Assembly: GCF_013403955.1 (NCBI RefSeq)
Contig: NZ_JABFDG010000001.1
Location: 1,488,001 to 1,552,000, forward strand
DNA: 64,000 nt
From: Winogradskyella vidalii
Lineage (GTDB): Bacteria; Bacteroidota; Bacteroidia; Flavobacteriales; Flavobacteriaceae
Direction: 5' to 3'
Program-made: the position numbers and the translations under genes
Notes under the pieces: generated by a model
What the model was told of the DNA's origin: nothing
Database searches by the model: none
The model's input: the letters and a program-made list of their open reading frames with translations, nothing else
In this document: one piece after another, positions 12,076 to 42,207 of the stretch
Layout of the letters: each line of letters starts with the position of its first letter
Numbering within the stretch: the stretch's first letter is position 1

Positions 12076-12088
12076 AATTGGGGTCTTT

Positions 12089-13024
12089 TTAGAAATATCT
12101 TGGCGATTTAATTCGTTTACTTTTAAAGACTTCAAACATCAGTAATACTTCGTGAGTACCACTAGTGTAAGGTCTAATATCTGAAATTGGATATTCATAG
12201 GCATAACCAATTCTAAGCTGTTTAGAGATTTGGAAATCTGCTATTCCACCTATGGCTTCGGCATATTGATTAATACGGTAAGCGCCTCCTAACCATAACT
12301 TTTCATTAAATAAAAAGTTAGCAGAGAGATCAAAAGATAAAGGTGCTCCATTTGTAGCTTTTAATAAAGCAGAAGGTTTTAGTTTTGTGTTTTCACTAAG
12401 GTTAAAGACATAACCACCAGTAAAATAATAACTAATACGTTCTAAGGCAACGTAATCTACTGAGCCGCTTCCACCATTGTTATAATCTGTGTTTAGTATT
12501 CTTGGTGCTGATAAGCCTAAATACCACTTATTAGAGTGTAAGTATACACCAGCTCCAAAGTTAGGACTCCAGCGATTAGATACATCGTCAAAGAATAAAT
12601 CATTTACAACAGAAGGATCGTTAAGAAGCTCTTGATCTAAGCTGTAATGGGTAAACCCACCTTTTAATCCAAAAGCTAATTTTACGGTTTCACTGGCTTT
12701 AATAGTGTACGAATAATCTGCGTATAGGTATGAAAAATTTTCATAACCCAATTTGTCATTGATAAAGGAAACTCCTAGACCCATGTTTTCATTTCGCAAA
12801 GGCGCGTGTACAGATAATGTCTGTGTTTCTGGGCCACCTTCTAGGCCAACCCATTGACTTCTATGTAACCCAACAACACTTAGTGTTTCTCTACTTCCGG
12901 CATAAGCGGGATTAATAGAAATGGTGTTAAACATGTACTGCGTAAACTGAGGTAGCTGCTGAGCAAAGACAGTAGAAACACTCAAAAAAAGTACAGCAAT
13001 ACTTATAATTTTTGATAACTTCAT
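12089..13024 (-). CDS. PorP/SprF family type IX secretion membrane protein
   Basis: 311 residues: signal peptide ending VFAQ, then the family hallmark QYMFNTISINPAYAGS near 29-44 and a strand-rich barrel to the end. In Flavobacterium johnsoniae SprF is needed to secrete the adhesin SprB, and relatives are encoded beside cargo proteins with type B sorting domains, acting as cargo-specific partners. Here it lies 14 bp downstream of just such a cargo and 13 bp before an OmpA/PD40 protein, in one operon. That makes it very likely the dedicated partner of the 1733-residue protein. Confidence 0.93.
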   Translation of the reverse strand: MKLSKIISIAVLFLSVSTVFAQQLPQFTQYMFNTISINPAYAGSRETLSVVGLHRSQWVGLEGGPETQTLSVHAPLRNENMGLGVSFINDKLGYENFSYLYADYSYTIKASETVKLAFGLKGGFTHYSLDQELLNDPSVVNDLFFDDVSNRWSPNFGAGVYLHSNKWYLGLSAPRILNTDYNNGGSGSVDYVALERISYYFTGGYVFNLSENTKLKPSALLKATNGAPLSFDLSANFLFNEKLWLGGAYRINQYAEAIGGIADFQISKQLRIGYAYEYPISDIRPYTSGTHEVLLMFEVFKSKRIKSPRYF

Positions 13025-13038
13025 TGGTTAAGTTTTAT

Positions 13039-16000
13039 TTAGTTTGTGGCTACGTAGATAGGACCTGCCATAGGTGCTAATCCACTATTTCTTAAGTTAA
13101 TAATGTAATAATATGTACCTGTTGGGACTTTCCCAGAATTTCCAATAGAAGAACTATGTGCTTCTCCATTCCAATCATTTAGGTAATTATTTGATTTATA
13201 TATTTCAGCGCCCCAACGGTTGAATATCTGTAACTCTATTACAAATCCACAATCTTCAATACCCGTAATGGTAAAGAATTCATTATGAGCATCGCCGTTA
13301 GCAGTTACCGTTTTTGATATGACAACATCATCTTCTCCACAAGCTAAAACCACACAGTCATCATCTAACGTTACTGTAACTTCTACTTCTGTTGGACAAG
13401 CATCTTCAGTAATAGCATACATAAATGTATATTCACCAACTTCAGCAGTAGTAGGATCAAAGAAGCTTCCATTATTAATAGTTGCATCTCCAGATACAAC
13501 ACTCCATGTTCCATTGGTATTAAAATCACCTGATAATAGTTCGAACAAATCAAATTCAATATCTAGTATACATCGGTTGGCATCATTAGCATAAATAACA
13601 TTTGTCATTTCTACGTTGATAGTTTGTGTGTACAAGGCTTGGTTTTCGCAATCATCAGTAACTGTCCAAGTTCTTGTAATTATGTAGTCGCCGTTTTCAT
13701 TAGGTTCACTTGACGTTTCATCAAAAGATACGCTAATATCATTTGAACAAGAATCTTCAAATACTGGGCTTGGAACTTCTGGAATAGCATCACATAAAAC
13801 CGTTATGTTTTCTTCAAAATCATTTATAGACGTTGGAGGTGTATTATCTTGAACATTAATGATTTGTGTATGCATTGTTTCATTACCACAGCTATCTGTT
13901 GCAATCCATGTACGTTCAATGATATAATCTCCCATACAAGACCCGTTAGTGATTTCTTCTTCAAATACAACATCAGCAGTTCCACAGTTATCTGAAGCAG
14001 TTAATGTTTCTGCTGTTGGTACAGCATCACACTCGGCATCTAAATCTTCTGGTAAGGTTTCGTTAAATGCTGGCGCTGTTGTATCTTGAATTGTAATGGT
14101 TTGTGTGAATGTTGTGGTGTTATCACAATCATCAGTTAAAGTCCATACTCTAGCAATTGTAGATGAAATAGGACAAGTGCCATCCGTAACAGTATCGGTA
14201 AATATAGCTTCAAGTTCTGTTGCACAGTTGTCTGCCTCATCGGTAACGTCTCCGGTAATACTTAAATCATTAATATCGACATCACATTCTACCGTAATAT
14301 CAGTAGGAACAGTAAATGTAGGCACTGTTGTATCTTGAACCGTTATAGTTTGGGTAAAAGTTGTTGTATTATCACAATCATCAGTTAATGTCCATATTCT
14401 AGATATAATTGAAGAATTGGTACAAGAACCATCTGTAATAGTGTCTGTAAATGTAGCTTCAAGATCTGTTGCACAGTTATCTGCTTCATCGGTTACGTCT
14501 CCTGTAATAGTTAAGTCCGTTACATCTTCATCACATTCTAAAGTTATATTAGCAGGTACTGAGAATGTTGGAACAGTAGTATCGTGTACAATAATTGATT
14601 GTGTACATTCAGCACTATTTAAAACCGTGGTTTCATCATCATCACGAACACCATTGCCATTTGTATCTTCATAAGAAGTTACTGTGTAAGTCCGTGTAAT
14701 AGTTTGTTCGCAAGTGTCTTGGTCACTACTGTTTTGAGCCGTAATTTCAATAATTCCACAAGCATTGTCTCCAATAACACCATCGGCATTACCTAAGGCT
14801 TCAAATGCTTCAATTGAATACGAAGTTTCTGAAGGTAAGTCGCTATAGCAATCTACAGTGGTTTCTTCAAAAGTAGGACAAGTCACTTCAAACGCGCAAC
14901 AAATTGCTGCTTCACCAGATAGCGTAATTGTATTACAACCATTTTCATCTGTGATTTCAACATTATATGCTTGATCACCAGCAATAGCAGTTGAAGTCCA
15001 TGTAAAAGTATCATCATCATTAGTGACCCATGTACCAGTTTCTCCTGAGCCTGTTGCAGTGAATGGTGCTGAACCTGTAAAGGTAGCAACAATAGTATAG
15101 GTTAATCCATCTTCTGAACATACCAATTCTTCTGTTGATACTAATGTAATATCATCTGTAAAATTAACAGTAACTTCTAAACGTGTTTGACTTTCACAGC
15201 TATCTGAAGTCGTTTGAGTTGCAAAATAAACATCGCCATCAATTAAAGCTTCAGAAGTATCTAGAGGTGTTGTACTCGTTTCACTTGAGTACCATTGAAT
15301 ATCTTCTCCAGTAGCCATTAAGTCAGCTACAGTTGGCTCACTAGAACTACAAAATTCTTGTGTAGTAGCTCCTGATGGTGCTGATGTTGTATTTGAACTT
15401 ACTGTTATAATAGCAGGTGTAGACGGCGTCCCTATAATATCTGTAATAATATATTCTACTGACGCACCTGAAAAACTTGGTAAAGCTTCAAATGTTACAA
15501 TACCGTTAGCACCAACTGTAAATGTTCCTTCACTCGAAATAGTAACCGTGTTAGTTGGTAATGAAGTTACAGGGTCTAAAAGTTGTACTGAAGTAACATC
15601 AATGTCATAAGTGCCTTCCGAATCATTTTCTAAAGTATTTATCTCAATTTCTGTTTCATCAGTGATACAAGTAAAATCATCTTGTGCCATAGGAGGAATT
15701 ATCTGTGCAGGACAACGTGCACCATCACCAGGGTGTACATCTATTAAATTGCTATAATAGGTAGCATTTATATTTCCTGTGTGTGGCGTTTCTATCCTGT
15801 AAATATTTCCAGATTGATTATTAGCAACATACATATTACCTAGAGCATCTGTAAAGGCTGTTCCAAAGGCATTGTCGGATTCTGAATCTAAGCCGGTCAC
15901 AGCACCTAAGTCATCAATAGTGTTATCCGCAACATTTAAACGTAATAATTTTTTAGTGGCTGTACTCGTTAGCATATATAAATTACCATCAATAGGACTG

Positions 16001-18240
16001 AAAGTTACATCATGTATGCTTACACCGTAATTTACTAAGTTTGTAGCTGTTAAATAATTTGGACTACTTGGATTAAGGTCAATAGAAACAAACTTATTGA
16101 CACCATGTAAATACAAAATACCATTGTCATCAATATCTCCAGCACTGTAATTACCAACAGTAAAAGGGCCTACAATAGGCAGCTGTTCTACATTACCTGA
16201 AGCATCAATTTTTACAATTTTATTAGTGAATTGTTGCATTCCATAAATACTGTTATCTAAACTATTGTAGCCAATACCATTGATGAATTGCGATTGAGTA
16301 GTGTCTTCAATTAGAGGGTATTTAATTAGAGTTTGTGTATTGGTTACTAAATCATAAGAGTATAAACCAGATATAAAATTATGAATACCACCTCCTGTAT
16401 TTACAATAACATAAGCTAAACCGTCTTCACAAGCAAAAGGCGTGGTTAAACATTCTGCTGGTGAATCTCCTGTTAGGGATAACGAACCACAATTATCTTC
16501 TATAGTTACGTTATAAGTTTCAACAGAACTTTCAATTGGGCTAGACACCCAAGTTGTAGTGCCATCTGTATTTTCTGTAAAGGTTCCAGATTGTCCATCG
16601 CCAGAAGCTGTAAATGGTGCCGTACCTGTAAATGTTGCTTCAATGGTGTAAAGTGTACCATTTTCAGTAACACAGCTTGTTTCTTCTGGTTCAGTTAATG
16701 CGATTTCAGGGCTGAAAGCTACTGTAACAGCTGTTCTTTCTACACTTTCGCATCCTGAATTACTAGTTTGAGAGGCGTAATACGTGTTACCGTCACTAAT
16801 TGCGTCTGTAAAATCTAAAGGACTTTCGTCAGTTGCACTAGCATACCATTGAATTGTATTCCCAAAAGCATTTAAGTCTGCTAAGGTTGGGGTATCACTT
16901 TCACAAAACTCTTGAGTTGAAGGTGCTGTTGGGGCTTCTGTTTCATTTAAATTAATAGTGATAAAGCCAGGGCTGGATAAATATCCTATTACATCTGAAA
17001 TGGTATATTCAATGGTTGTTCCTGTAAAAGTTGGTAGTGCTTCAAATGTAACGTCTCCGTCAGTTCCTACGGTAAATGTACCTTGGTCTGAAATTGTTAC
17101 TGTATTTGATGGTAATGAAGTCTCTGGGTCAATAAGTTGAACAGAGGAAGTATTTATAGCATAAGTTCCTTCAGAGTCGTTATCCGTTACGTTTAAGGTA
17201 ACCTCAGTCATATTGGCAGTAATACAAACACTATCTGCAATGGCCATTGGTTTGGTAGGTTGGCTAGGACAACGTGCGCCGTCTCCAGGACTAACACCTG
17301 GTAAATTACTATAAAAAGTTGCTGTTAAACCACCTAGATGGGGTGTTGCTATTTTATAGGTATTACCAGAGACATTATTTGCAACATACATATTTCCTAA
17401 GCTATCCATATAAGCCGTACCAAAAGAATTGGTGCTTTCTGACTCTAATCCAGATACCTGTCCTAAATTGCTAATAGTATTCGTAGCCGAATCAAATCTC
17501 AACAGCGACCTAGAGCTTGTACTCGTCAGCATATAGATATTGTTATCAATAGGGCTAAAAGCCATGTCATTGATACTTGTTGAGTGTTGTAGTACGATGT
17601 TTGCGACTAAATAGTTAGGACTTGATGGGTTTAAATCAATAGTTACAAAACGTCCTGACCCGTATAAATACAAAATACCATTTTCATCTATATCTCCTGA
17701 AGGGTAAGTATTTCCAACTAAACCTGTTACTGTTAGTAATTCAAGATCCCCATTTTGATCAATTTTTACCACTTTATCACTTCCAAGTAGCAATCCATAT
17801 AAGTAATTATCAACTGTATTGTAACCAATCGCATTTACAAACTGAGATGTTGATGTATCAGAAATTAAAGGATTTTTTATTAATGTGAGCGAGTTTGTAG
17901 ATAAATCAAAAGCGTATAAACCTGTGACATTTCCATTAGGACTACCTACGTTGGTGAGTATATAGCTTAACCCATCACTACAATCGAACGTCATATTAGC
18001 TCTGCCGCTTAACGTATTTTGAAGGTCATTATACTTCGATTCTGGAATGTTACGAGAATAACCGTTTGTTAGTCTAAAATCCTCAGAAGGCGTTTGATTG
18101 ATTTTAGAATTGTTTTGGCTTTTTACAGGCGAAACCTGACCAAAAGAGCTAAAACTAACCATAACTAAAGTTACGATAAACACCAATGACATTAGCGGAT
18201 TGAGAGGTGTTTTTGATTTGGGATTGTATAAGTGTTTCAT
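13039..18240 (-). CDS. Giant secreted protein with T9SS type B sorting domain
   Basis: 1733 residues. A signal peptide (about 1-35, ending SSFGQ) precedes two tandem copies of a ~515-residue module (about 85-598 and 601-1115). Each copy holds a propeller-like region (FxCxDGLxY start, QFxNxIGYN, GDIDxNGILYL), an Ig-like VTDNDSEGTY type region, and a TFTGxAPFTA region. Next come four HYR/Ig-like repeats (about 1210-1545) containing DDCDNTTTFTQTIT and ECD motifs. The C-terminal ~90 residues (SKTVTANGDAHNEFF, LQIFNRWGAEIYK, GTYYYIINL) are the gliding-motility-associated type B sorting domain. It is secreted by T9SS and probably displayed on or released from the surface. Adhesion is inferred; no enzyme domain is seen. 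Confidence 0.92.
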   Translation of the reverse strand: MKHLYNPKSKTPLNPLMSLVFIVTLVMVSFSSFGQVSPVKSQNNSKINQTPSEDFRLTNGYSRNIPESKYNDLQNTLSGRANMTFDCSDGLSYILTNVGSPNGNVTGLYAFDLSTNSLTLIKNPLISDTSTSQFVNAIGYNTVDNYLYGLLLGSDKVVKIDQNGDLELLTVTGLVGNTYPSGDIDENGILYLYGSGRFVTIDLNPSSPNYLVANIVLQHSTSINDMAFSPIDNNIYMLTSTSSRSLLRFDSATNTISNLGQVSGLESESTNSFGTAYMDSLGNMYVANNVSGNTYKIATPHLGGLTATFYSNLPGVSPGDGARCPSQPTKPMAIADSVCITANMTEVTLNVTDNDSEGTYAINTSSVQLIDPETSLPSNTVTISDQGTFTVGTDGDVTFEALPTFTGTTIEYTISDVIGYLSSPGFITINLNETEAPTAPSTQEFCESDTPTLADLNAFGNTIQWYASATDESPLDFTDAISDGNTYYASQTSNSGCESVERTAVTVAFSPEIALTEPEETSCVTENGTLYTIEATFTGTAPFTASGDGQSGTFTENTDGTTTWVSSPIESSVETYNVTIEDNCGSLSLTGDSPAECLTTPFACEDGLAYVIVNTGGGIHNFISGLYSYDLVTNTQTLIKYPLIEDTTQSQFINGIGYNSLDNSIYGMQQFTNKIVKIDASGNVEQLPIVGPFTVGNYSAGDIDDNGILYLHGVNKFVSIDLNPSSPNYLTATNLVNYGVSIHDVTFSPIDGNLYMLTSTATKKLLRLNVADNTIDDLGAVTGLDSESDNAFGTAFTDALGNMYVANNQSGNIYRIETPHTGNINATYYSNLIDVHPGDGARCPAQIIPPMAQDDFTCITDETEIEINTLENDSEGTYDIDVTSVQLLDPVTSLPTNTVTISSEGTFTVGANGIVTFEALPSFSGASVEYIITDIIGTPSTPAIITVSSNTTSAPSGATTQEFCSSSEPTVADLMATGEDIQWYSSETSTTPLDTSEALIDGDVYFATQTTSDSCESQTRLEVTVNFTDDITLVSTEELVCSEDGLTYTIVATFTGSAPFTATGSGETGTWVTNDDDTFTWTSTAIAGDQAYNVEITDENGCNTITLSGEAAICCAFEVTCPTFEETTVDCYSDLPSETSYSIEAFEALGNADGVIGDNACGIIEITAQNSSDQDTCEQTITRTYTVTSYEDTNGNGVRDDDETTVLNSAECTQSIIVHDTTVPTFSVPANITLECDEDVTDLTITGDVTDEADNCATDLEATFTDTITDGSCTNSSIISRIWTLTDDCDNTTTFTQTITVQDTTVPTFTVPTDITVECDVDINDLSITGDVTDEADNCATELEAIFTDTVTDGTCPISSTIARVWTLTDDCDNTTTFTQTITIQDTTAPAFNETLPEDLDAECDAVPTAETLTASDNCGTADVVFEEEITNGSCMGDYIIERTWIATDSCGNETMHTQIINVQDNTPPTSINDFEENITVLCDAIPEVPSPVFEDSCSNDISVSFDETSSEPNENGDYIITRTWTVTDDCENQALYTQTINVEMTNVIYANDANRCILDIEFDLFELLSGDFNTNGTWSVVSGDATINNGSFFDPTTAEVGEYTFMYAITEDACPTEVEVTVTLDDDCVVLACGEDDVVISKTVTANGDAHNEFFTITGIEDCGFVIELQIFNRWGAEIYKSNNYLNDWNGEAHSSSIGNSGKVPTGTYYYIINLRNSGLAPMAGPIYVATN
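14890..17990 (-). repeat. Internal tandem duplication of a ~515-residue module
   Basis: The protein segment beginning FDCSDGLSYI (nt about 17988) recurs as FACEDGLAYV (nt about 16438), 516 residues later. Matching landmarks follow in the same order through the end of each copy: IKNPLISDT/IKYPLIEDT, GDGARCPSQ/GDGARCPAQ, and TFTGTAPFTA/TFTGSAPFTA. The copies have diverged clearly, so the duplication is old. Confidence 0.85.
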
Positions 18241-26562: not shown

Positions 26563-26647
26563 GGAGAATTGGCAGAGTGGTCGAATGCGGCAGTCTTGAA
26601 AACTGTTGAGGGTCACACCTCCGGGGGTTCGAATCCCTCATTCTCCG
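26563..26647 (+). tRNA. tRNA-Ser (UGA anticodon)
   Basis: An 85-nt class II tRNA. The acceptor arms GGAGAAT (26563-26569) and ATTCTCC (26640-26646) pair perfectly, G26647 is the discriminator, the anticodon loop is CTTGAAA with anticodon TGA, a long variable arm is present, and the T loop is GGTTCGAATCC. The 3' CCA is not encoded (GCAA follows), so it must be added after trimming, fitting the presence of RNase Z in this window. It reads UCA codons and, by wobble, other UCN codons. Confidence 0.97.
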
Positions 26648-26649
26648 CA

Positions 26650-33284: not shown

Positions 33285-34466
33285 TTAATCGACTAATAAC
33301 TCGTATTGAAATTGCGGATAACCGCGTTCTCCTGTTTCGCTTTCAACAGCCGTAAATCGTAACTTATAATAATTATTATCGGTGTCTTTAACGACATAAT
33401 AGGTGTCTTCTCTTACCGAAGTTTCTCCTGTCATATAGTCTACACTTCTCCAACCGCTACCAATTACAGCACGGTTATTATATTCAAAATTAGCTTCGTT
33501 AATATCGGCAGATGTAAAATCAGTATAACTTGGAGTAGATTCATCTTCTACAGTTACTTGGTATAAAACGACACCACCAAGTGTGTTATGTAAGGTGAAA
33601 TCAGAATAGGTTAAGCCTGCAGCTATTGTGCCTTGTAAACCATAATACGAAAATACACCTCCAAAATCAATATCCCAATTAGAAGATTCTGGTTCTACAC
33701 TAACCACTTGTCCATCGGTTAAACTCACAGCTGTAAGGTTGTAACTATTGTTTTTTGATACTGTAATTTCAGAAAAATCTGAAGTATTAGTTAGTGACGC
33801 ATATTGAATAGTATAACTATTACCGTCTGTTAATACTCTTACTTTCATAAACCCTCTTGGGTCTCCAGTGGTATTTATTGTGCCATTATTGGCTGTAGGG
33901 ATTTCGTTACCTAGATTTACAATGTATACATTATTGTCACTGTCTGTAGTAGAGATTTCTTCAAAAGCAGTCCCCGTTAATTCACCTTCTTTACTATCTG
34001 TAAAAGAAATACCAGCATCTAAGTTGCCATATTGGTAATAACCAACAGGTAAACCTTCCATTAATTCTGCAACGGTGTTAACTGTTACAGTAGTTGGAGT
34101 AAAACTTTGGTCTAGTGCATTTAAAGTTAAAGGTGAGGTTAAACTTGTTGCTTCTGTAACAGAAGTGATATCATTAATACCTTCTAGCTCTGCAGCAGAA
34201 ACTAGTAGCGCGTTATTAAGGTAAATTCTATTTTCAGAACCGTTATATACCGCAATTTCCCAAGAATCTCTTCGAGAAGATAATTGTTCTCCGGTACTTA
34301 AATCTACATAGACACGATTAGCCTGGTTAAACCCACCCACATCAGGGTCTATAATTCCACCTGAAGTTGGAGGTGTAATCGTAATGGAAGGACTGTCATC
34401 GCTGCTACAACTTGTAACAAGTGCGGCACTTATAAATAAGATTAGTGTAAAAAATTTGTTTATCAT
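33285..34466 (-). CDS. HmuY-family lipoprotein, probable haem-binding partner
   Basis: 393 residues: SPII signal ending LVTSC, followed by SSDDS, an acidic stretch fitting export of surface lipoproteins in Flavobacteriaceae. The mature part has the features of HmuY-like proteins: DSWEIAVYNGSENRIYLNN, NWDIDFGGVFSYYG and a terminal YYKLRFTAVESETGERGY. In Porphyromonas HmuY binds haem and hands it to the TonB receptor HmuR. Here it lies 5 bp downstream of a TonB receptor. The specific haem ligands cannot be assigned by eye, so another small ligand is possible. Confidence 0.82.
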   Translation of the reverse strand: MINKFFTLILFISAALVTSCSSDDSPSITITPPTSGGIIDPDVGGFNQANRVYVDLSTGEQLSSRRDSWEIAVYNGSENRIYLNNALLVSAAELEGINDITSVTEATSLTSPLTLNALDQSFTPTTVTVNTVAELMEGLPVGYYQYGNLDAGISFTDSKEGELTGTAFEEISTTDSDNNVYIVNLGNEIPTANNGTINTTGDPRGFMKVRVLTDGNSYTIQYASLTNTSDFSEITVSKNNSYNLTAVSLTDGQVVSVEPESSNWDIDFGGVFSYYGLQGTIAAGLTYSDFTLHNTLGGVVLYQVTVEDESTPSYTDFTSADINEANFEYNNRAVIGSGWRSVDYMTGETSVREDTYYVVKDTDNNYYKLRFTAVESETGERGYPQFQYELLVD

Positions 34467-34471
34467 AATTG

Positions 34472-36628
34472 TTAGTGTTTAAAATTTAAATTATATGAAA
34501 GTTTTAAAAAATAAGATCGGCCATTACCGATAAGTCTTGATGTAGATGTTGTGCTCGTATGGCTTCCGGCAGAAGCTACAGAGTTAATATTTACAACATC
34601 TAAAATATTTCGTACGCCAAGTGTGGCATTAAGTTTAGAAGTAAGCTTTGTTCGGATTGAGGCATTTAACCAGGTGAATGCTTCTGTTAAACCAATGAAT
34701 GTTTCGCCATCATCGTTACTAAATATACCTTCGGTTTCCCCTGTGTATTTTAGTTGGCTAGAAACTGTAGTATTCCATTTTGGGATTTTATAAGCCAATG
34801 AAGATTGTAAATTTAAACTCCATAAATAAGCATCATTGTTAGTGTTAGATTCTGAGATGTCATTTTTAACACCGAGATATGTTGCTCCTAAACCAATATT
34901 CCAGTTCTTGTATATAAAGCTATTGTCTAAGGTAAACCCTAGCCTGGCACTATAATCTATGTTGTCTTGTGTAAAAAGTGTTCTTCCATCATCGTCTTCT
35001 GTTGTAATACTCGTAATGGCATCTTTTAAATAGATATGAAAAAAGTTGAAGCTAGTATTTAGATAACCTTCTTTGGCTATTTTAAAGTTATCTTTCAGAT
35101 TTACAAAAAGAGAAATACCGTCTTCTGGTTGTAAGTCTGGATTGCCTTGTACATTATGATTAGCATCTACAAAATAATAGAAAAGTTCTTCAAAATTAGG
35201 CGCTCTATACGCTGAGCCAATCACAGCTTTTAGTTTAAGCTTTTCTGAAAAATTATAATTAGAAGATAAAGACCATATTAAATGATTATCAAATTGCGTG
35301 CTATGCGTAAATCTTGCGCCTGGATTTATGGATAGCTTTTTTGTCGGTTGAAACTCAGTAATACCAAATAATTCATAATTGGTGATTGTGTTGGTTACGA
35401 CCTCGTTAGAATAAGCTCCAGTAGCATTGGCGTCAAAACCAGATTGATTTGTAAACTCATAACCTAATTGCAAATCAAATAAACGAGATTTTGGTAGAAT
35501 ACTGTTTACAAAAGCTTTAGAATACCAAACGTCACTCGATTGGCTTAATGCATCAATTTCTACAGATTGCGTTTGCTGCTCTATAATATTGTATATAAAT
35601 TCTTTATAGTTACGTTTTTGATTTTGATACGATAATGAAAAATTATACTGTGTTGCACCTTTTAGTGGACCTGAAACATTGATGTTGTTAACCCATCTAT
35701 CCGTTTTGTAATTTTCATCTAATGCTGTCGGGTTTAAGCTTCCGTTTTGATATCTACCATTTACAGTGTGATTATAGATATCTAAATCTTCATTAAAATA
35801 TTGTAACTTATAAAAGATATTGTGTTTGCCTAAATCTAAATTAACATTAGCAGAGGCTGTAATTTGTTCTTTAGGGTTCCATTCAGTACCACGCAAACTA
35901 TCATTAACGACTATATTATCTTGAACATTGACATAGTTTTTACCTTTATAATCGTTATAATAGCCAGCAAAATCATTTCGAGAGACCCCAAAAGCATAGG
36001 ATAATTTTTCATTGACTTGATTTGTCGCTCTAAAATTTTGAATGTGTCTTCCTTTATCAAAAAATTCAAATTCATTCCCCACAGTTTCTTCCTGAAGTGA
36101 TAACTGAAGCTCCCATCCTTCATTTTTTAGACCTCTTTTTGTAATTATATTAATGACTCCTGCTACAGCATTATCACCATATAATACGCCCATTGAACCT
36201 TCAACAATTTCAACACGTTCTACATCATCAATATTAATTTGAGAGATATCTATATTGTTTCCTACACCATTATCACTAATTACAGGAATTCCATCGACTA
36301 AAATTTTTACATATTGCCCATCCAAACCAAATAGGCTAACAGTTGAGCGTCCTGTAGAAGCATCCGGATTCACACTTATATTTAAGTTGTTGTATAATAT
36401 GTCTGCTAAGTTGTTTCCTCCTAAATTGTCTATGTCTTTCCTGTTAATTGTACCTACAGTAAATAACTTTTTGCTCAAAGACATCACATTACTTTCGCCT
36501 TTAACAACAACTTCATCTAATGGATTTACTTCTGTTGTGTCACTTACTGTTCGCTTTTGTTGAGCAAATGACCATGAAAAGAAAATAATTGAAAAATAAA
36601 TCGAGATTTTATTTTTATTTAGACTCAT
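34472..36628 (-). CDS. TonB-dependent outer-membrane receptor
   Basis: 718 residues: signal peptide (about 1-22), a plug domain (about 45-165, with LGGNNLADILYNNLNISVNP, VKILVDGIPVI, ERVEIVEGSMGVLYGDNAVA and GVINIITKRG) and a 22-strand-type barrel ending SYFLKLSYNLNF with a terminal aromatic. There is no carboxypeptidase-like N-terminal domain and no SusD neighbour, so it is not a SusC-type glycan receptor. Pairing with HmuY and the divergent reductase operon suggests haem or another iron compound. The promoter overlaps a candidate operator at 36662-36678. Confidence 0.93.
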   Translation of the reverse strand: MSLNKNKISIYFSIIFFSWSFAQQKRTVSDTTEVNPLDEVVVKGESNVMSLSKKLFTVGTINRKDIDNLGGNNLADILYNNLNISVNPDASTGRSTVSLFGLDGQYVKILVDGIPVISDNGVGNNIDISQINIDDVERVEIVEGSMGVLYGDNAVAGVINIITKRGLKNEGWELQLSLQEETVGNEFEFFDKGRHIQNFRATNQVNEKLSYAFGVSRNDFAGYYNDYKGKNYVNVQDNIVVNDSLRGTEWNPKEQITASANVNLDLGKHNIFYKLQYFNEDLDIYNHTVNGRYQNGSLNPTALDENYKTDRWVNNINVSGPLKGATQYNFSLSYQNQKRNYKEFIYNIIEQQTQSVEIDALSQSSDVWYSKAFVNSILPKSRLFDLQLGYEFTNQSGFDANATGAYSNEVVTNTITNYELFGITEFQPTKKLSINPGARFTHSTQFDNHLIWSLSSNYNFSEKLKLKAVIGSAYRAPNFEELFYYFVDANHNVQGNPDLQPEDGISLFVNLKDNFKIAKEGYLNTSFNFFHIYLKDAITSITTEDDDGRTLFTQDNIDYSARLGFTLDNSFIYKNWNIGLGATYLGVKNDISESNTNNDAYLWSLNLQSSLAYKIPKWNTTVSSQLKYTGETEGIFSNDDGETFIGLTEAFTWLNASIRTKLTSKLNATLGVRNILDVVNINSVASAGSHTSTTSTSRLIGNGRSYFLKLSYNLNFKH

Positions 36629-36645
36629 TCTTGATAGATTTGTGG

Positions 36646-36681
36646 CAAATATAGAATCTTATTTTAATTCATTCTAAATAA
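36646..36681 (-). promoter_or_regulatory. Receptor promoter overlapped by candidate iron operator
   Basis: On the minus strand TATATTTG (36646-36653) is a full -7 match, with TTTA at about the -33 position. The 17-bp element 36662-36678 (plus strand TTTTAATTCATTCTAAA) lies in the promoter spacer. It is an imperfect palindrome with good outer arms (TTATTT/AAATAA when extended to 36659-36681) and four mismatched pairs inside. The half-site ATTCTAAAT resembles sites of iron-responsive repressors. Its place between two divergent iron-type operons suits a shared operator. Confidence 0.45.
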
Positions 36682-36729
36682 GGAGCCTTTTTTTAATATT
36701 TTTTTTAAACACATTTATAAAAATTATCA

Positions 36730-37632
36730 ATGAGAAATACAGTACAGGTTTTAGTAATTATGTTGTTCTTTAGTTTTTCTGCTCATGCGCAAAAAAAGAA
36801 GACACAAGACCAAGAATCTATTAAAGATATGTGTGGTTGCTTTGAAGTCACTTTTAATTTTACTGAAACTTTTAATTATAGTAACGATTCCCTTTACAGA
36901 CCTTCTGAAACAAAGGTTGATAGAGGTTTAGAATGGGCACAATTAGTAGAAGACGAGGATGATAAAATTTCTATTCAGCATTTATTGCAAGTAGGTCGTC
37001 CAGATGCCCCTATGATTATTAAACATTGGCGACAAGATTGGTTGTTTGAAAATCAAGATTTTTATATGTACAATGGTGATAATAATTGGACCTTTACAAA
37101 AAAATCTAAAGACGAAGTAGAGGGACAGTGGACACAAAAAGTATTTCAAGTAGATGATAGCCCACGTTATGAAGGTTCTGGCTCATGGGTTCATGTCGAT
37201 GGAAAGAATTACTGGGAGAATACAACAACAGCACCGTTACCAAGACGAGAATATACCAAACGAAACGATTACAATATTACATTAAGAGGTAACCGTCAAG
37301 AAATTACAGATTTTGGTTGGGTTCATAATCAAGATAATGCCAAAGTTATTCGTGAAGCTGGAGAACCAGATGTAATTTTAGCTAAAGAAAAAGGTTACAA
37401 TACCTATAAAAGAGTAGACGATAGTAGATGTCAATCTGCACAAGATTGGTGGAAAGAACATGAAGACAAGTGGCGTTTAGTTAGAGCTAAATGGGATAAT
37501 GTTTATAAGAGTGACCAAGATTTAACGCTTAAAAATAAAGTAGATAATAAACTCTTGTATAAGTATTTATTTGATGATGCTATTAATTCTGAAGAACAAA
37601 TAGAACGTATTATAACATCTTTTGTAAAATAA
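36730..37632 (+). CDS. DUF6607-like periplasmic protein
   Basis: 300 residues with a signal peptide ending SAHAQ. The mature protein opens with KDMCGCFEVTFNFTETFNY and is rich in Trp and Tyr (DWLFENQDFYMYNGDNNWTF, GSWVHVDGKNYWENT). It seems to match the family annotated DUF6607, of unknown function; that name is from memory and less certain than the description. It is the first gene of the rightward operon opposite the TonB receptor, and its CGC pair and aromatic face could suit a cofactor-binding role. Confidence 0.65.
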   Translation: MRNTVQVLVIMLFFSFSAHAQKKKTQDQESIKDMCGCFEVTFNFTETFNYSNDSLYRPSETKVDRGLEWAQLVEDEDDKISIQHLLQVGRPDAPMIIKHWRQDWLFENQDFYMYNGDNNWTFTKKSKDEVEGQWTQKVFQVDDSPRYEGSGSWVHVDGKNYWENTTTAPLPRREYTKRNDYNITLRGNRQEITDFGWVHNQDNAKVIREAGEPDVILAKEKGYNTYKRVDDSRCQSAQDWWKEHEDKWRLVRAKWDNVYKSDQDLTLKNKVDNKLLYKYLFDDAINSEEQIERIITSFVK

Positions 37633-37654
37633 GTTTAAAACTAAACCAATATAT

Positions 37655-39136
37655 ATGAAATTAATAAAGTCAATTACAGTATTTCTTTTGGTAACTTTCA
37701 CTTTACCATTTTTTGCCCAAAGCGAAAATATTTTTCTAAATCGTGATTATTGGGGTAATAAGCCAACCGTAGCAGAGGTTAAATCAAAAATAGAAGAAGG
37801 CAATGACCCTGCAGAGGCAAATGGTTCTAATTTTGATGGTGTTACTTATTCTATTATACAAAATGCGCCTCTAGAAACCATAACATTTCTTATATCTCAA
37901 GAAGGAAATGATGTAAATAAACTAACGCATGATGGTAGAACATACATTTTTTGGGCTGCCTATAGAGGTAATGTTGAATTAATGAAATACCTTATTAAAA
38001 ACGGTGCAAAAACGGACGTAAAAGACGACAAGGGTAGTTCTATAATTAATTTTGCTGCTGCTGCAGGAGAAGATAATACCAAAGTTTATGATCTTATTAT
38101 GGCTCAAGGTATCGATTTAAAAACGGACCTAACACCAAAAGGTGCAAACGCATTATTGGTAGCTGCACCATCTGATAAAGACTTTAAACTAATAAAGTAT
38201 TTTATATCGAAAGGTTTAGATATAAATTCTGTTGATAAAGATGGTAATGGAATTTATAATTATATCGCTAAATCTGGTAATACAGTCGCTTTAGATAAAA
38301 TTTCAGAAATGGGTGTTAAAGGTACTGATCAAGCTTTCATTTTTGCTGCAAATGGTATGAGAAGACAACCAACAGACCTTAAAGTATACCAATACCTAAA
38401 AGACCAAGGGTTTAATCCAAATATCACGAATAACCAAGGAGAAACCCCTTTACATATTCTAGCTGGCAGAGGTAAAAACAGAGCTGTATTTAATTTTTTA
38501 TTAGAAAATGGACTCGATGTGAACCAAAAAGATAAACATGGAAATACAGCATTTATGAATGCTGCTTCTAGTAACGATTTAAAGCTTGTAGAATTTTTAT
38601 CTAAAAAATTAAAAGATATAAATACGATTAACAAAAAAGGACAATCGGCTTTAATGCTAGCTACAGCAAATAACAAAGTTGGGGTTGTAGAATTTTTATT
38701 GGATCATAAAGCAAACACAACGCTTAGCGATGCTGATGGCAATAACTTGGTTTATTATTTAGTGGATTCGTATTCAAAACGTAACGAATCTAATTTTAAA
38801 CAAAAAATGGCATTACTTCAAAATCACGGTATAAAGTTAGAAGAACTTAAAAATGATGGTAACACTTGGTTTCATTTGGCCGTTGAAAAAAACAGTTTAG
38901 ATTTATTAACCTACAGTACTAAGTTTAAACAAGATATCAACGCTAAAAATAATGAAGGTAATACCGCTTTACATATCGCGGCAATGACATCTAAAGATGA
39001 TGCATTATTAAAATATCTTATTAAAAATGGTGCTGAAAAGGACGCTAAAACTGATTTTGAAGAAACGGCTTACGATTTAGCAAAAGAAAATGAATTGCTA
39101 AAAGCGAATAACATTTCAGTAGAATTTTTAAAGTAA
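37655..39136 (+). CDS. Exported ankyrin-repeat protein
   Basis: 493 residues: signal peptide (about 1-21, ending PFFAQ), then some eleven ankyrin repeats from about 60 to 480, including DGRTYIFWAAYRGNVELMKY, NQGETPLHILAGRGKNRAVF, HGNTAFMNAASSNDLKLVEF and EGNTALHIAAMTSKDDALLK. Ankyrin arrays bind partner proteins; an exported one would act in the periplasm or at the outer membrane. It lies 22 bp after the DUF6607-like gene and 8 bp before the DUF2271-like gene, so it is within the operon. Its partner may be another product of the locus. Confidence 0.85.
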   Translation: MKLIKSITVFLLVTFTLPFFAQSENIFLNRDYWGNKPTVAEVKSKIEEGNDPAEANGSNFDGVTYSIIQNAPLETITFLISQEGNDVNKLTHDGRTYIFWAAYRGNVELMKYLIKNGAKTDVKDDKGSSIINFAAAAGEDNTKVYDLIMAQGIDLKTDLTPKGANALLVAAPSDKDFKLIKYFISKGLDINSVDKDGNGIYNYIAKSGNTVALDKISEMGVKGTDQAFIFAANGMRRQPTDLKVYQYLKDQGFNPNITNNQGETPLHILAGRGKNRAVFNFLLENGLDVNQKDKHGNTAFMNAASSNDLKLVEFLSKKLKDINTINKKGQSALMLATANNKVGVVEFLLDHKANTTLSDADGNNLVYYLVDSYSKRNESNFKQKMALLQNHGIKLEELKNDGNTWFHLAVEKNSLDLLTYSTKFKQDINAKNNEGNTALHIAAMTSKDDALLKYLIKNGAEKDAKTDFEETAYDLAKENELLKANNISVEFLK

Positions 39137-39144
39137 AATTACCG

Positions 39145-39633
39145 ATGAAAACTATTAAATTATTAAGTATTGCAAGCCTTATGTTTTTAGGGTTAATGTC
39201 TTTTACTACAGTAGCAGAAAGTTCAAAATATAAGTGTATGATTCAGATGACGAATTATACAGGTGAAGGCGCTTATATCGTCATTTCATTAATGAATCCT
39301 GAAGGGGAGTATGAAGAAACCTTAAACGTTATTGGCGATGATGAAGAATGGTATAACACCATTGAATCTTGGTGGGACTTTTACGGTAAAAGACGTCCAG
39401 ATATCGATGCTATAACAGGTGCAACCGTTAGTGGAGGCGAACGTACAATTAATGTCATTGAAATTGATGACGATAAACTAGATAAAGGGTATAAGCTTCG
39501 TTTTGAATCGGCTGTTGAAGATCAAGAGTATTACGAAAAAGATGTAGAAATAGAGTTAACTTCTGCCAACGTAAAGTCTAAAGTAGAAGGTAACGGTTTT
39601 ATTCGTTACATCCGAATGATGCCTCAAAAATAA
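39145..39633 (+). CDS. DUF2271-like exported protein
   Basis: 162 residues. The signal peptide (about 1-24, MSFTTVAES cleavage area) is followed by a compact beta-rich domain: KYKCMIQMTNYTGEGAYIVI, DDEEWYNTIESWWDFYGK, DIDAITGATVSGGERTINVI. This pattern resembles DUF2271, which is often found next to PepSY membrane proteins and iron-uptake genes. GATVSGG looks like the motif in FMN-binding domains, but no FMN link is established. Located 9 bp before the PepSY fusion gene. Confidence 0.75.
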   Translation: MKTIKLLSIASLMFLGLMSFTTVAESSKYKCMIQMTNYTGEGAYIVISLMNPEGEYEETLNVIGDDEEWYNTIESWWDFYGKRRPDIDAITGATVSGGERTINVIEIDDDKLDKGYKLRFESAVEDQEYYEKDVEIELTSANVKSKVEGNGFIRYIRMMPQK

Positions 39634-39642
39634 AGTGTTAAT

Positions 39643-41841
39643 ATGACCATTTCTATCTGGAGGTATAGCCATTTAATACTCGCAATATTAACATCTCTAT
39701 TTGTTTTAATAGCATCAGTAACTGGTGCTATTTTGGCATTTGAACCTATTTCAAATCAATTGCAACCTTATGCCATTTCTGGAGCCCATGAGCGTTCCCT
39801 TGCGGAAACTTTAAGTGTGTTGCAACAAGAGTATGATGAGGTATTTACCCTAGAGGTCGATAAAAATGGTTTTGTTAGTGCCTCAGTAATTACAAAAGAA
39901 GGGGATAGTGATACGTTTTATATCAATCCTGTCACAGGAGAGAAATTAGGTGACCTCATTAAAAAAGCACCACTTTTTGAATTTGCGACCAACTTACATC
40001 GCTCACTGTTTTTAAAAACCACAGGTCGAATTTTAATTGGTGTTGTGTCCTTTTTATTGATTTTAATTACTATAACTGGAATTAAATTAATCTTGAAGCG
40101 TCAAGGTGGTTTTAAACGCTTTTTCTCAAAAGTAGTTAAGGAAAATTTTAATCAATATTACCATGTGGTCATTGGTAGATACGCGCTAATTCCTATTCTT
40201 ATAATTACCATAACAGGAGTGTTTTTATCTTTAGAACGCTTTGAGTTATTACCAATTACTAAAACGTCACACCAATATCTAGAACAAGTTGAACCGGAAA
40301 ATAAATTAGCATTAAAAGATCTAAAAATATTTCAAGATTTAAAACTTGAAACAGTAAAACAGGTTGAATTTCCTTTTTCAGATGATATTGAAGATTATTT
40401 CATTGTTCAATTAAATGACAAAGAGTTATTAGTTAATCAGTTTACGGGTGACGTTGTTAGCCAACAGAATTCGTCGTTAGTAACTATACTCACAGATTGG
40501 AGTATTATTTTACACACAGGTGAAGGCACCATAATCTGGTCGGTTGTTTTGTTGTTAGCAAGTTTAGCGATTTTGTTTTTTATGTATTCGGGCTTCGCCA
40601 TGACTATAAAACGACGAAAAGACACTTCAAAAATTAAAAATAAATTTAAAAAAGATACTGCTGAATATATCATATTAGTTGGATCGGAAACAGGAAACAC
40701 CTTCAATACCGCTAAGTTATTTTATGATGCATTATTAGCAGCAGGACATTCTGCTTATGCAGCTTCTTTAAACGAGTATTCAACCTATAACAAAGCAAAA
40801 CATATCATTGTTTTCGCGGCAACATATGGTGAAGGTGAAGCGCCTATTAGTGCTTCAAACTTTAATAAGTTATTTGCGGAAGTTAATCAAAAGCAAACCA
40901 TTTCATATGCGGTTATAGGCTTTGGTTCGCTGATGTATCCTGATTACTGTAAATATGCAATTGAAGTAGACCAAATGTTTCAAAAGCAGCCTAATTTCGA
41001 AGTGCATTTACCGCTTTTTAAAATCAATAATCAGTCTTTTGAAGCTTTCAAAACATGGATTCAACAATGGAATAAAAGCAGTAATCAAGATTTAAAAATT
41101 CAATTTAAAAAACCTCAAATTAAAACCAAAAGCTTAAAGGAATTTAAAGTGGTGCAAAAAACAGCTTTGAATATTGACCATACGTTTTTAGTGCAACTAC
41201 GACCTCAAAAAAAGACCAAATTTACATCTGGGGATTTACTGTCGTTATTTCCGGATCAAGATTTTATAGAACGTCAATATTCTATAGGAAAAATAGAAAA
41301 TGACATTCTTTTAAGTATTAAAAAGCATGAATTAGGAGTTTGTTCAAATTACTTTAACCAACTAAAATTAAACGATGTGGTTAAAGCGAAAGTAAAACGA
41401 AATTATGAATTTCATTTTCCTACGGATGCAAAAGCGGTAATAATGATTGCCAATGGTACAGGAATAGCACCTTTTTTAGGCATGATTAACGACAACCAAA
41501 ATCAAACAAAAACACATCTATTTTGGGGCGGAAGAACACAGGCCTCATTAGATATTTATAAAAATAGTATTGATACAGCGTTTTCTAAAGATACCCTATC
41601 AAGTTTTCATGTCGCGTATTCACAAGAACAAGAAGAAAAATTCTATGTTCAAGATTTACTCTTAAAACATCAAGATTTATTATCACAAGTATTAAATACT
41701 AATGGTGTTGTGATGATTTGTGGATCTATAGCGATGCAAAATCGTGTTTTAGAAGTCTTAAATAGTGTCACAACAGCAAAACTCAACAAACCATTGAGCA
41801 CGTTTGAAAGTAACGCGCAAATAAGGATGGATTGTTATTAA
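39643..41841 (+). CDS. Membrane PepSY-flavodoxin-NADPH reductase fusion
   Basis: 732 residues combining three modules. Residues about 1-325 are a PepSY-associated membrane domain with four helices (near 9-33, 124-145, 174-195 and 295-322) and a histidine-containing loop between. Residues about 340-475 are flavodoxin-like, with FMN loop VGSETGNTFNTAK and FAATYGEGEAPISA. Residues about 490-732 are a ferredoxin-NADP reductase/CysJ-like module, with RQYSIGKI for FAD and ANGTGIAPFLGM for NADPH. Electrons would flow from cytosolic NADPH through FAD and FMN across the membrane. In this setting a ferric-iron or haem reductase is the natural guess. Confidence 0.88.
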   Translation: MTISIWRYSHLILAILTSLFVLIASVTGAILAFEPISNQLQPYAISGAHERSLAETLSVLQQEYDEVFTLEVDKNGFVSASVITKEGDSDTFYINPVTGEKLGDLIKKAPLFEFATNLHRSLFLKTTGRILIGVVSFLLILITITGIKLILKRQGGFKRFFSKVVKENFNQYYHVVIGRYALIPILIITITGVFLSLERFELLPITKTSHQYLEQVEPENKLALKDLKIFQDLKLETVKQVEFPFSDDIEDYFIVQLNDKELLVNQFTGDVVSQQNSSLVTILTDWSIILHTGEGTIIWSVVLLLASLAILFFMYSGFAMTIKRRKDTSKIKNKFKKDTAEYIILVGSETGNTFNTAKLFYDALLAAGHSAYAASLNEYSTYNKAKHIIVFAATYGEGEAPISASNFNKLFAEVNQKQTISYAVIGFGSLMYPDYCKYAIEVDQMFQKQPNFEVHLPLFKINNQSFEAFKTWIQQWNKSSNQDLKIQFKKPQIKTKSLKEFKVVQKTALNIDHTFLVQLRPQKKTKFTSGDLLSLFPDQDFIERQYSIGKIENDILLSIKKHELGVCSNYFNQLKLNDVVKAKVKRNYEFHFPTDAKAVIMIANGTGIAPFLGMINDNQNQTKTHLFWGGRTQASLDIYKNSIDTAFSKDTLSSFHVAYSQEQEEKFYVQDLLLKHQDLLSQVLNTNGVVMICGSIAMQNRVLEVLNSVTTAKLNKPLSTFESNAQIRMDCY

Positions 41842-41853
41842 AAACAAAAGCCC

Positions 41854-42207
41854 ATGTGCAAACGAATAAAAATTTTATCAAAAGTTAGTAATGGCGAATT
41901 ATCTGTATGCGAATGTTGCGGAATTTATCATTTAGAGTTTAATAACATTTATTTTGAATTCACCCACGAACAATACCATCATTTTAAAAACTATTTAATG
42001 ACAATAGAAGAAGACTATTGGGAAGACTTGTATGCTAATGCTAGCGTAAAACGTAAAATTCCAATTCCGTCTGTTCAAGAAAATTTAGTGTTGATGTTTA
42101 ATCGTGAAGAAATTTTACAATTAAGATTATTATTCTGTAAGAGAGGCTGTGTTTATCAAAACTATATTTCACTCAAGGATATAGATTATAAGATATTTCT
42201 CAACTAA
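41854..42207 (+). CDS. Small Cys-containing protein (DUF6686-like)
   Basis: 117 residues without signal or membrane segments. It has CECCGIYHLEFNNIYFEF near 19-36, and a second Cys pair CKRGC near 96-100, so a metal- or cluster-binding site from about four to five Cys is possible. A family annotated DUF6686 fits from memory. It is the last gene of the haem/iron-type operon, 12 bp after the reductase, and lies just before guaB, which has its own -7 element. Confidence 0.65.
   Translation: MCKRIKILSKVSNGELSVCECCGIYHLEFNNIYFEFTHEQYHHFKNYLMTIEEDYWEDLYANASVKRKIPIPSVQENLVLMFNREEILQLRLLFCKRGCVYQNYISLKDIDYKIFLN

Follow-up and report, generated by a model that had tools for sequence, protein, structure and literature searches.

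How does a bacterium that captures haem reduce the ferric iron it has taken in? The question is raised by a seven-gene locus of Winogradskyella vidalii, at 33285-42207 of the window, by which we mean the whole 64,000-nucleotide stretch analysed (contig NZ_JABFDG010000001.1, positions 1,488,001 to 1,552,000). Here the genes of a TonB-dependent receptor and an HmuY-family lipoprotein face a run of five genes encoding a DUF6607 protein, an exported ankyrin protein, a DUF2271 protein, a fusion of PepSY_TM, flavodoxin and NAD-binding domains, and a small DUF6686 protein. We read this as probably a Fur-controlled haem-iron locus of two modules, equipped with its own periplasmic reductase driven by reduced nicotinamide adenine dinucleotide phosphate (NADPH), and give this reading a probability of about 0.7. 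A first-pass annotation had suggested an undescribed uptake-and-reduction system. Most of the locus proves to be two described kinds of system joined, because the DUF6607 and DUF2271 families have published roles; what is new is the steady exported ankyrin and the joining in one operon, for neither of which we found a description. Judged from sequence, the assignment of the haem-capture and reductase halves by family is strong, and the link between them, through conservation in one clade, is well supported. This analysis established the protein families and their motifs, the conservation of gene order, the descent of the joined arrangement and the presence of Fur-like boxes. With a haemophore and a membrane reductase paired in one operon, the release of iron by reduction in the periplasm can be tested directly, and the locus suggests how such marine bacteria may free iron from imported compounds.

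The haem-capture and reductase halves

All seven open reading frames translated from the window sit inside 33285-42207 on the strands first assigned, and a profile search against Pfam backs each protein name, which confirms the earlier picture of a lipoprotein and receptor facing a five-gene run. The gaps within the run are 22, 8, 9 and 12 bp, so short that we read it as a single operon. By eye, signal peptides are present on the DUF6607, ankyrin and DUF2271 proteins.

DUF6607 (36730-37632, plus strand; PF20311, E 2.2e-96) matches PDB entry 8xjc, titled 'haemophore', with an E of 5e-85 in phmmer. An AlphaFold2 model built from 20 sequences, with a predicted local distance difference test score (pLDDT) of 89.5, matches the same entry in Foldseek (E 1.4e-30; template-modelling (TM) score 0.82/0.88). 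The 8xjc protein is RhuH of Riemerella anatipestifer, which is reported to bind haem with a dissociation constant of 3.44e-11 M through the iron ligand His96, to strip haem from haemoglobin and to be exported in vesicles; deletion of rhuH leads to poorer growth on haemoglobin and haemin, and rhuH and rhuR-rhuA have a common bidirectional promoter that holds a Fur box (PMC11967795). Counted in the 8xjc alignment, His96 falls on H99 of the window protein, which is invariant (20/20 aligned sequences). DUF6607 belongs by sequence to the RhuH haemophore family, and haem binding by the window protein is predicted by homology. The left half of the locus is likened to the rhuA-rhuR/rhuH haem locus because of this family membership, and the haem capture proposed in the first-pass annotation is borne out by the family and by the RhuH-like divergent layout. 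No paper using the name DUF6607 was found, and the available text of the RhuH paper (PMC11967795) does not contain 'duf'.

The TonB-dependent receptor (34472-36628, minus strand; Plug 1.7e-19, barrel 3.9e-25) partly resembles models of B12, haem and siderophore receptors, with every NCBIfam score below cut-off; its position would make it a RhuR-type haem receptor. The HmuY-family protein (33285-34466, minus strand; PF14064, E 2.3e-17) bears a lipoprotein signal, read from sequence as ...VTSC followed by SSDDS, matches a putative haem-binding protein weakly (PDB 6eu8, E 0.0083) and has no NCBIfam match. It is probably the protein, of RhuA/HfpY type, that binds haem in partnership with the receptor. 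Similar partners recur in a phylum sample of 296 Bacteroidota genomes, which gave 25 DUF6607 matches; with the window and a contig-end fragment (L025) set aside, 23 loci (L029-L051) were examined. In 22/23, a TonB receptor from the same BLAST cluster as that of the window is found no more than 8 kb from DUF6607; the remaining locus, L029, has a different TonB receptor. HmuY-type proteins are near DUF6607 in 21/23 (cluster c2 12, c3 9), their Pfam membership being checked for the window and one member each of c2 and c3.

The reductase half begins with DUF2271 (39145-39633, plus strand; PF10029, E 1.6e-40), in which the ApbE motif TGAT occurs within DAITGATVSGG. Among DUF2271 proteins of the ankyrin-DUF2271-fusion block, 91/98 have [ST]GA[ST] at residues 87-104. 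A DUF2271 protein is reported to be flavinylated by ApbE, a modification abolished by replacing the motif threonine, and DUF2271 is present in 2833 of 3220 PepSY-like flavinylation clusters, which the same authors tie to iron reduction or assimilation (PMC8238504). Family and TGAT motif together predict that the window protein is a periplasmic flavin carrier. Elsewhere in the sample, two proteins combine both domains in a single chain, ApbE first and DUF2271 second (L096:7281-8792 and L098:8174-9691); no ankyrin-block genes were found near them.

The fusion (39643-41841, plus strand; PF03929 4.2e-40, PF00258 Flavodoxin_1 1.3e-14, PF00175 NAD_binding_1 6.8e-12) has cysJ as its top NCBIfam model, at 1.4e-39 and below the model cut-off. 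It would consist of a PepSY_TM membrane domain with cytoplasmic flavodoxin and flavin adenine dinucleotide (FAD)/NAD(P)H domains resembling CysJ and cytochrome P450 reductase. Its membrane half matches PDB 7abw (E 5e-5), a Pseudomonas PepSY-like protein with two haem sites (PMC11334425). Four histidines, H10, H119, H174 and H291, are kept in 96/96 relatives whose fusion frame reaches at least 600 amino acids, a frame missing in 3/99 blocks (L156, L170, L197); these histidines are presumably haem ligands. The fusion is the likely membrane electron donor to DUF2271, and its family supports the earlier proposal that it passes electrons across the inner membrane.

The exported ankyrin and the joining of the halves

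Between the halves lies the exported ankyrin (37655-39136, plus strand; Ank_2 3.6e-44). Its AlphaFold2 model is a single solenoid (pLDDT 90.7) whose best PDB matches are designed ankyrin repeat proteins and ankyrins, with TM scores up to about 0.5 by query length. Among the H, C, W, Y and M residues considered, W33, H92, Y97, W100, Y182, Y203 and H407 occur in at least 97% of 99 rows. In the phylum sample DUF2271 scores above cut-off 23 times, in 22 genomes: in the window, at a contig start (G254, left out) and at 21 loci that were examined. Ankyrin, DUF2271 and fusion follow in that order in 18 of these 21. The three misses are the DUF2271-ApbE fusions L096 and L098, and L050, a paralogue beside DUF6607 with no ankyrin; in L086 the fusion is separated from DUF2271 by a 228-amino-acid open reading frame. 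Of the 18 blocks, 14 are followed by a gene of the ApbE cluster (Pfam checked for two).

An ankyrin-alignment scan of a named genome collection found at least 563 stretches encoding relatives, and the best 80 loci were examined. With unlabelled open reading frames not counted as interruptions, the order ankyrin, DUF2271, fusion is found in 79 of these 80 nearest relatives and is missing only from L197, a 6.8-kb contig. A plasmid search with the ankyrin returned 24 records, the best a Spirosoma plasmid at 45.7% and the other four listed at 22-26%. Literature searches found no published role for an exported ankyrin and no paper naming DUF2271 together with ankyrin. The exported ankyrin is an undescribed steady component of the DUF2271 systems of Bacteroidota. 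One ankyrin protein of Campylobacter, Cj1386, is reported to carry haem to catalase in the cytoplasm via a tyrosine (PMC11442138), a precedent for haem handling that we take as a lead and not as evidence. Of the earlier remark that the ankyrin and DUF proteins have no known role, the part on the ankyrin stands; DUF6607 (as RhuH) and DUF2271 (an ApbE substrate, PMC8238504) have one.

Are the two halves joined by more than chance? In the phylum sample DUF6607 occurs in 25/296 genomes, DUF2271 above cut-off in 22/296 and both in 16, a co-occurrence with Fisher p 1e-15 by genome and 3e-6 by genus (7 shared, from 11 and 13 among 139), where these p-values, like the Fur-box counts below, take no account of relatedness. 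Of the 16 genomes with both, only that of the window and G182 have them close together, and in G182 this holds for one (L050) of its two DUF2271 genes; the ankyrin block is absent from 23/23 other DUF6607 neighbourhoods. The modules therefore tend to travel together yet mostly sit apart.

Closer to the window the pattern is different. Among 68 genomes of its genus, scored by DUF6607 and DUF2271 matches, DUF2271 is found in 36 and DUF6607 in 40; all 36 DUF2271-bearing genomes also have DUF6607, on the same contig and strand, with about 1.6-1.7 kb between matches, which is room for one ankyrin gene. Counting labelled genes only, 57 of the 80 relatives nearest to the window have DUF6607 directly upstream of the block; by its closeness to the window this set favours the window's arrangement. 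The DUF6607-ankyrin gap is at most 28 bp in 49 of the 57. Joined loci are found in genera that include Winogradskyella, Tamlana, Bizionia, Lacinutrix, Olleya, Tenacibaculum, Aquimarina and Xanthomarina. In a tree of 96 blocks (quick method, support from the Shimodaira-Hasegawa-like approximate likelihood ratio test only, midpoint root; L156, with a split fusion gene, left out), 57/57 joined rows, the window and 56 relatives, fall in one clade of 66, with 8 label changes. The rows nearest to the window genome (4.33 Mb) are from Winogradskyella. Given the midpoint root, the tree fits one joining in an ancestor within Flavobacteriaceae followed by several separations. Conservation of the block with its haemophore, which the first-pass annotation proposed to check across Bacteroidota, thus holds in a Flavobacteriaceae clade (57/80, and 36/36 in the genus) and fails phylum-wide, where the modules are mostly apart.

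Literature searches found no description of haem genes and such a reductase block joined in one operon; iron-responsive transmembrane electron-transfer genes are mentioned near the haem genes hfpR/hfpY of Flavobacterium psychrophilum (PMC9331221). In the phylum sample, by raw count, other electron-transfer genes are beside DUF6607 in 5/23 loci: PepSY_TM in L029 and L032, flavodoxin in L032 and L034, and in L050 a DUF2271 lacking the motif (L050:8585-9076, which reads VGET). In L033 (L033:7974-10570) the genes directly after DUF6607 encode an FMN_bind protein that carries TGAT and a 164-amino-acid membrane protein with several histidines and no Pfam name, with a ferritin gene adjoining on the opposite strand; here a different flavin carrier is beside the haemophore.

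The last gene of the run, DUF6686 (41854-42207, plus strand; PF20391, E 3.8e-43), encodes a small cysteine-rich protein without a signal peptide. It is an occasional member, following the block in 17/57 joined loci. DUF6686 also occurs near DUF6607 without the reductase block in L032, L033, L037, L046 and L047 (Pfam-confirmed in L032).

Probable iron control and the weighing of readings

The Fur box of R. anatipestifer is given as ATTTAGAATTATCCTAAAT (PMC10986502), and Fur-like boxes were scored against its symmetrised form over 18 positions, in the 160 bp upstream of each gene. Two boxes, each with 15/18 matches, lie between the divergent arms: ATTTAGACTCATTCTTGAT at 36617-36635, overlapping the predicted receptor start, and ATTTTAATTCATTCTAAAT at 36661-36679, about 50 bp upstream of DUF6607. 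Between them are two possible divergent -7 elements, TAGATTTG (plus strand, 36635-36642) and TATATTTG (minus strand, 36653-36646), picked out by the Bacteroidota -7 consensus TAnnTTTG. A box of at least 14/18 is found upstream of 57/57 DUF6607 genes (the window counted, and L162, which lacks upstream DNA, left out) and of 16/25 ankyrin genes that are not directly behind DUF6607, against 22/513 control genes of the same loci, which may include other iron genes. In the phylum sample, scored over 16 positions, upstream regions exceed shuffles with z 9.8 for DUF6607 and 8.6 for the ankyrin. Other forms of the motif were tried and dropped: spacing one base longer (z 1.4 for DUF6607, 3.6 for the ankyrin), one base shorter (3.1, 3.2), a loose form (-0.8, 0.1) and the short core TTAGANTNNNTCTAA (9.4, 5.0), which fell below the form kept. 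A scan for sigma-70 promoters gave no excess (39 observed, 45.1 expected). The locus is probably under the control of Fur and iron, which agrees with its first designation as iron-type. The 22-bp gap before the window's ankyrin leaves little room for a promoter, and the gene should therefore follow that of the haemophore.

We propose that the locus works in two stages. In capture, the RhuH-family haemophore would take up haem, the HmuY-family lipoprotein would retain it on the outside of the cell, and import into the periplasm would fall to the TonB receptor. In reduction, the fusion would draw electrons from NADPH via its cytoplasmic FAD and flavin mononucleotide (FMN) domains, and these would travel by way of two b-type haems in the membrane part of the fusion to the FMN covalently bound to DUF2271. 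DUF2271 would then reduce the imported ferric iron, whether in haem, freed from haem or in another ferric complex, while the exported ankyrin would dock or pass on the carrier or its substrate. The resulting Fe(II) would enter through FeoB, which is present in the window genome, a point in favour of this reading together with the two negatives on haem oxygenase and HmuS given below. Haem binding as in RhuH, flavinylation of DUF2271 and a reductase role for PepSY are carried over from relatives; we infer which cofactors the fusion holds, what accepts the electrons, what the ankyrin does and that iron enters by FeoB.

Several points weigh against this reading, beside the relatedness that the counts above leave aside. 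Reduction of haem iron does not by itself release the iron from porphyrin. Because R. anatipestifer releases its RhuH in vesicles, this protein is an unlikely electron acceptor. In the phylum sample 6/24 DUF6607 promoters score at most 11, the level of shuffles, and so do 5/19 of the stretches upstream of the ankyrin, which include the 22-bp gap of the window. The motif of DUF2271 reads TGET or SGET in 7/98 block rows, where flavinylation may be lost; in these rows (L158, L159, L161, L164, L183, L212, L214) Ala is replaced by Glu and Thr retained, and the genomes concerned do carry an ApbE. The window locus has no ApbE, and ApbE is near 0/57 joined and 12/23 unjoined loci of the 80-locus set; the single ApbE of the window genome is distant from the locus. 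An ApbE was found in 75/75 genomes searched (59 genus genomes, nine of less than 90% completeness having been left out, and 16 genomes of named loci), so that losing the neighbour need not mean losing flavinylation; for the same reason the presence of ApbE was dropped as a discriminating test. The genome also holds a BtuC-like FecCD permease of an ATP-binding cassette transporter, with a binding protein, and two weaker FecCD matches; this permease could import haem, B12 or siderophores. Lastly, the block occurs without adjoining DUF6607 in 23/80 nearest and 18/18 phylum-sample loci; three joined loci (L187:6537-8990, L207:5840-8287, L220:6511-8937) have, between DUF6607 and the ankyrin, a TonB receptor that scores above cut-off as a siderophore receptor (TIGR01783); and TonB receptors of the modelled types are within 3.5 kb of the block in 15/41 unjoined cases. 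The substrate therefore need not be haem.

These last observations lead to the strongest rival, to which we give somewhat less than an even chance: the ankyrin-DUF2271-fusion block would be a general reductase of Fe(III) or ferri-siderophores, of the XusC/HiuB/FoxB sort, placed in an operon with haem genes by common Fur control and never touching haem. The three inserted siderophore receptors lowered our preferred reading slightly and raised this one, which also draws on the TonB neighbours of unjoined blocks and on the Fur-like boxes that unjoined ankyrin genes have of their own (16/25). It has published parallels in hiuABC and XusABC, in each of which a TonB receptor and a PepSY reductase serve siderophores together, and in the tie of such clusters to iron assimilation (PMC8238504). 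Against it, the joining to a haemophore gene has been retained over many genera, and other electron-transfer genes adjoin DUF6607 elsewhere (5/23). The genome, moreover, already has a separate PepSY_TM protein adjoining a TonB receptor (L053:9461-13061; G000 C11, about 832-836 kb), the best model of that receptor being TIGR01783, below cut-off. Near unjoined blocks, mostly adjoining the TonB receptors, is a family of lipoproteins of about 440 amino acids (L084:5636-6910, L093:10517-11899, L103:5232-6542, L095:15605-16942) to which Pfam, NCBIfam and PDB searches gave no name; the idea of linking those of L084, L093 and L103 to XusB/DUF4374 had no support from these searches and was dropped.

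A bolder version of the haem reading, which we regard as unlikely, would free haem iron outside the cytoplasm. Electrons would pass from the fusion through the FMN of DUF2271 to haem held on the ankyrin or another periplasmic carrier; reductive or oxygen-coupled opening of the ring, or release of iron, would take place in the periplasm, and Fe(II) would enter via FeoB. If true, periplasmic release would replace a cytoplasmic haem oxygenase and HmuS, and the ankyrin would be a periplasmic redox partner that handles haem. Haem oxygenase PF01126 was not found in the window genome (a search that did not extend to the HugZ and IsdG types), nor was CobN-type HmuS (PF02514), and the absence of the CobN family rules out a route of the Porphyromonas gingivalis HmuS type.

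Less probable again is that the electrons from the block go to a redox enzyme or metal pathway of the periplasm other than that of iron, copper handling and the maturation of haemoproteins being examples. The title of one paper names CrpH, a PepSY_TM protein supporting haem-copper oxidoreductase function (PMC13038864), and the ankyrin protein Cj1386 brings haem to catalase; the Fur-like boxes and the haem and iron neighbours argue the other way, and Pfam finds no copper or catalase family in the seven proteins. That the seven genes are chance neighbours, as the separation of the modules in most sampled genomes of neighbouring genera might suggest, is rejected as very improbable by the conservation of the joining (36/36 genus genomes and 57/80 nearest relatives, mostly with gaps of a few bases, and every joined row in one clade).

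Two other features of the window lie away from the locus. Its sole detected tRNA gene, also its sole Rfam match at the gathering threshold, is tRNA-Ser(TGA) at 26563-26648 on the plus strand. At 10135-18240 (minus strand) a 1733-amino-acid protein with a type IX secretion signal domain (CHU_C) adjoins PorP/SprF and an OmpA-family gene, a neighbourhood ordinary in Bacteroidota that have type IX secretion.

Comparison with known systems

The closest likeness of the capture half is to RhuH-RhuR-RhuA (PMC11967795, PMC10986502), where the haemophore gene is likewise divergent from those of the receptor and haem-binding protein. The window has a common promoter region with Fur-like boxes, a homologous haemophore and the same haem ligand; its likeness to RhuA-RhuR is one of gene layout and of the Pfam families of the window proteins. 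Unlike in R. anatipestifer, the window's haemophore gene runs on into ankyrin, DUF2271 and reductase, and the available text of the RhuH paper (PMC11967795) names no reductase and lacks the word 'PepSY'. HmuYRSTUV of P. gingivalis and HfpR/HfpY of F. psychrophilum (PMC9331221) also combine an HmuY-family lipoprotein with a TonB haem receptor. In contrast to HmuYRSTUV, the window genome is without CobN-type HmuS, and the reductase is inside the haemophore run.

The reductase half resembles XusABC (PMC13142918) and HiuABC (PMC13001220) in pairing a TonB receptor with an inner-membrane PepSY reductase, and the likeness of the fusion to FoxB, XusC and HiuB is a sequence relation of its membrane half to 7abw. 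The substrates of XusABC and HiuABC are reported to be siderophores; their PepSY proteins differ from that of the window, which has NADPH-diflavin domains of its own and a periplasmic flavin partner. Closest are the PepSY-like flavinylation clusters (PMC8238504), including Caulobacter CCNA_03155-03159 (PMC12004947), which combine PepSY_TM with DUF2271 bearing [ST]GA[ST], contain an NAD-binding domain in a subset and have been implicated in iron reduction. They differ from the window in two respects: (i) ApbE, which is described as only 'frequently' in the clusters (PMC8238504), is elsewhere in the window genome; and (ii) DUF4198, found in 1500 of 3220 PepSY-like clusters and thus optional (PMC8238504), is missing from the window's seven proteins. 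In place of DUF4198 the window has the exported ankyrin, a word that the main texts of PMC8238504 and PMC12004947 do not contain.

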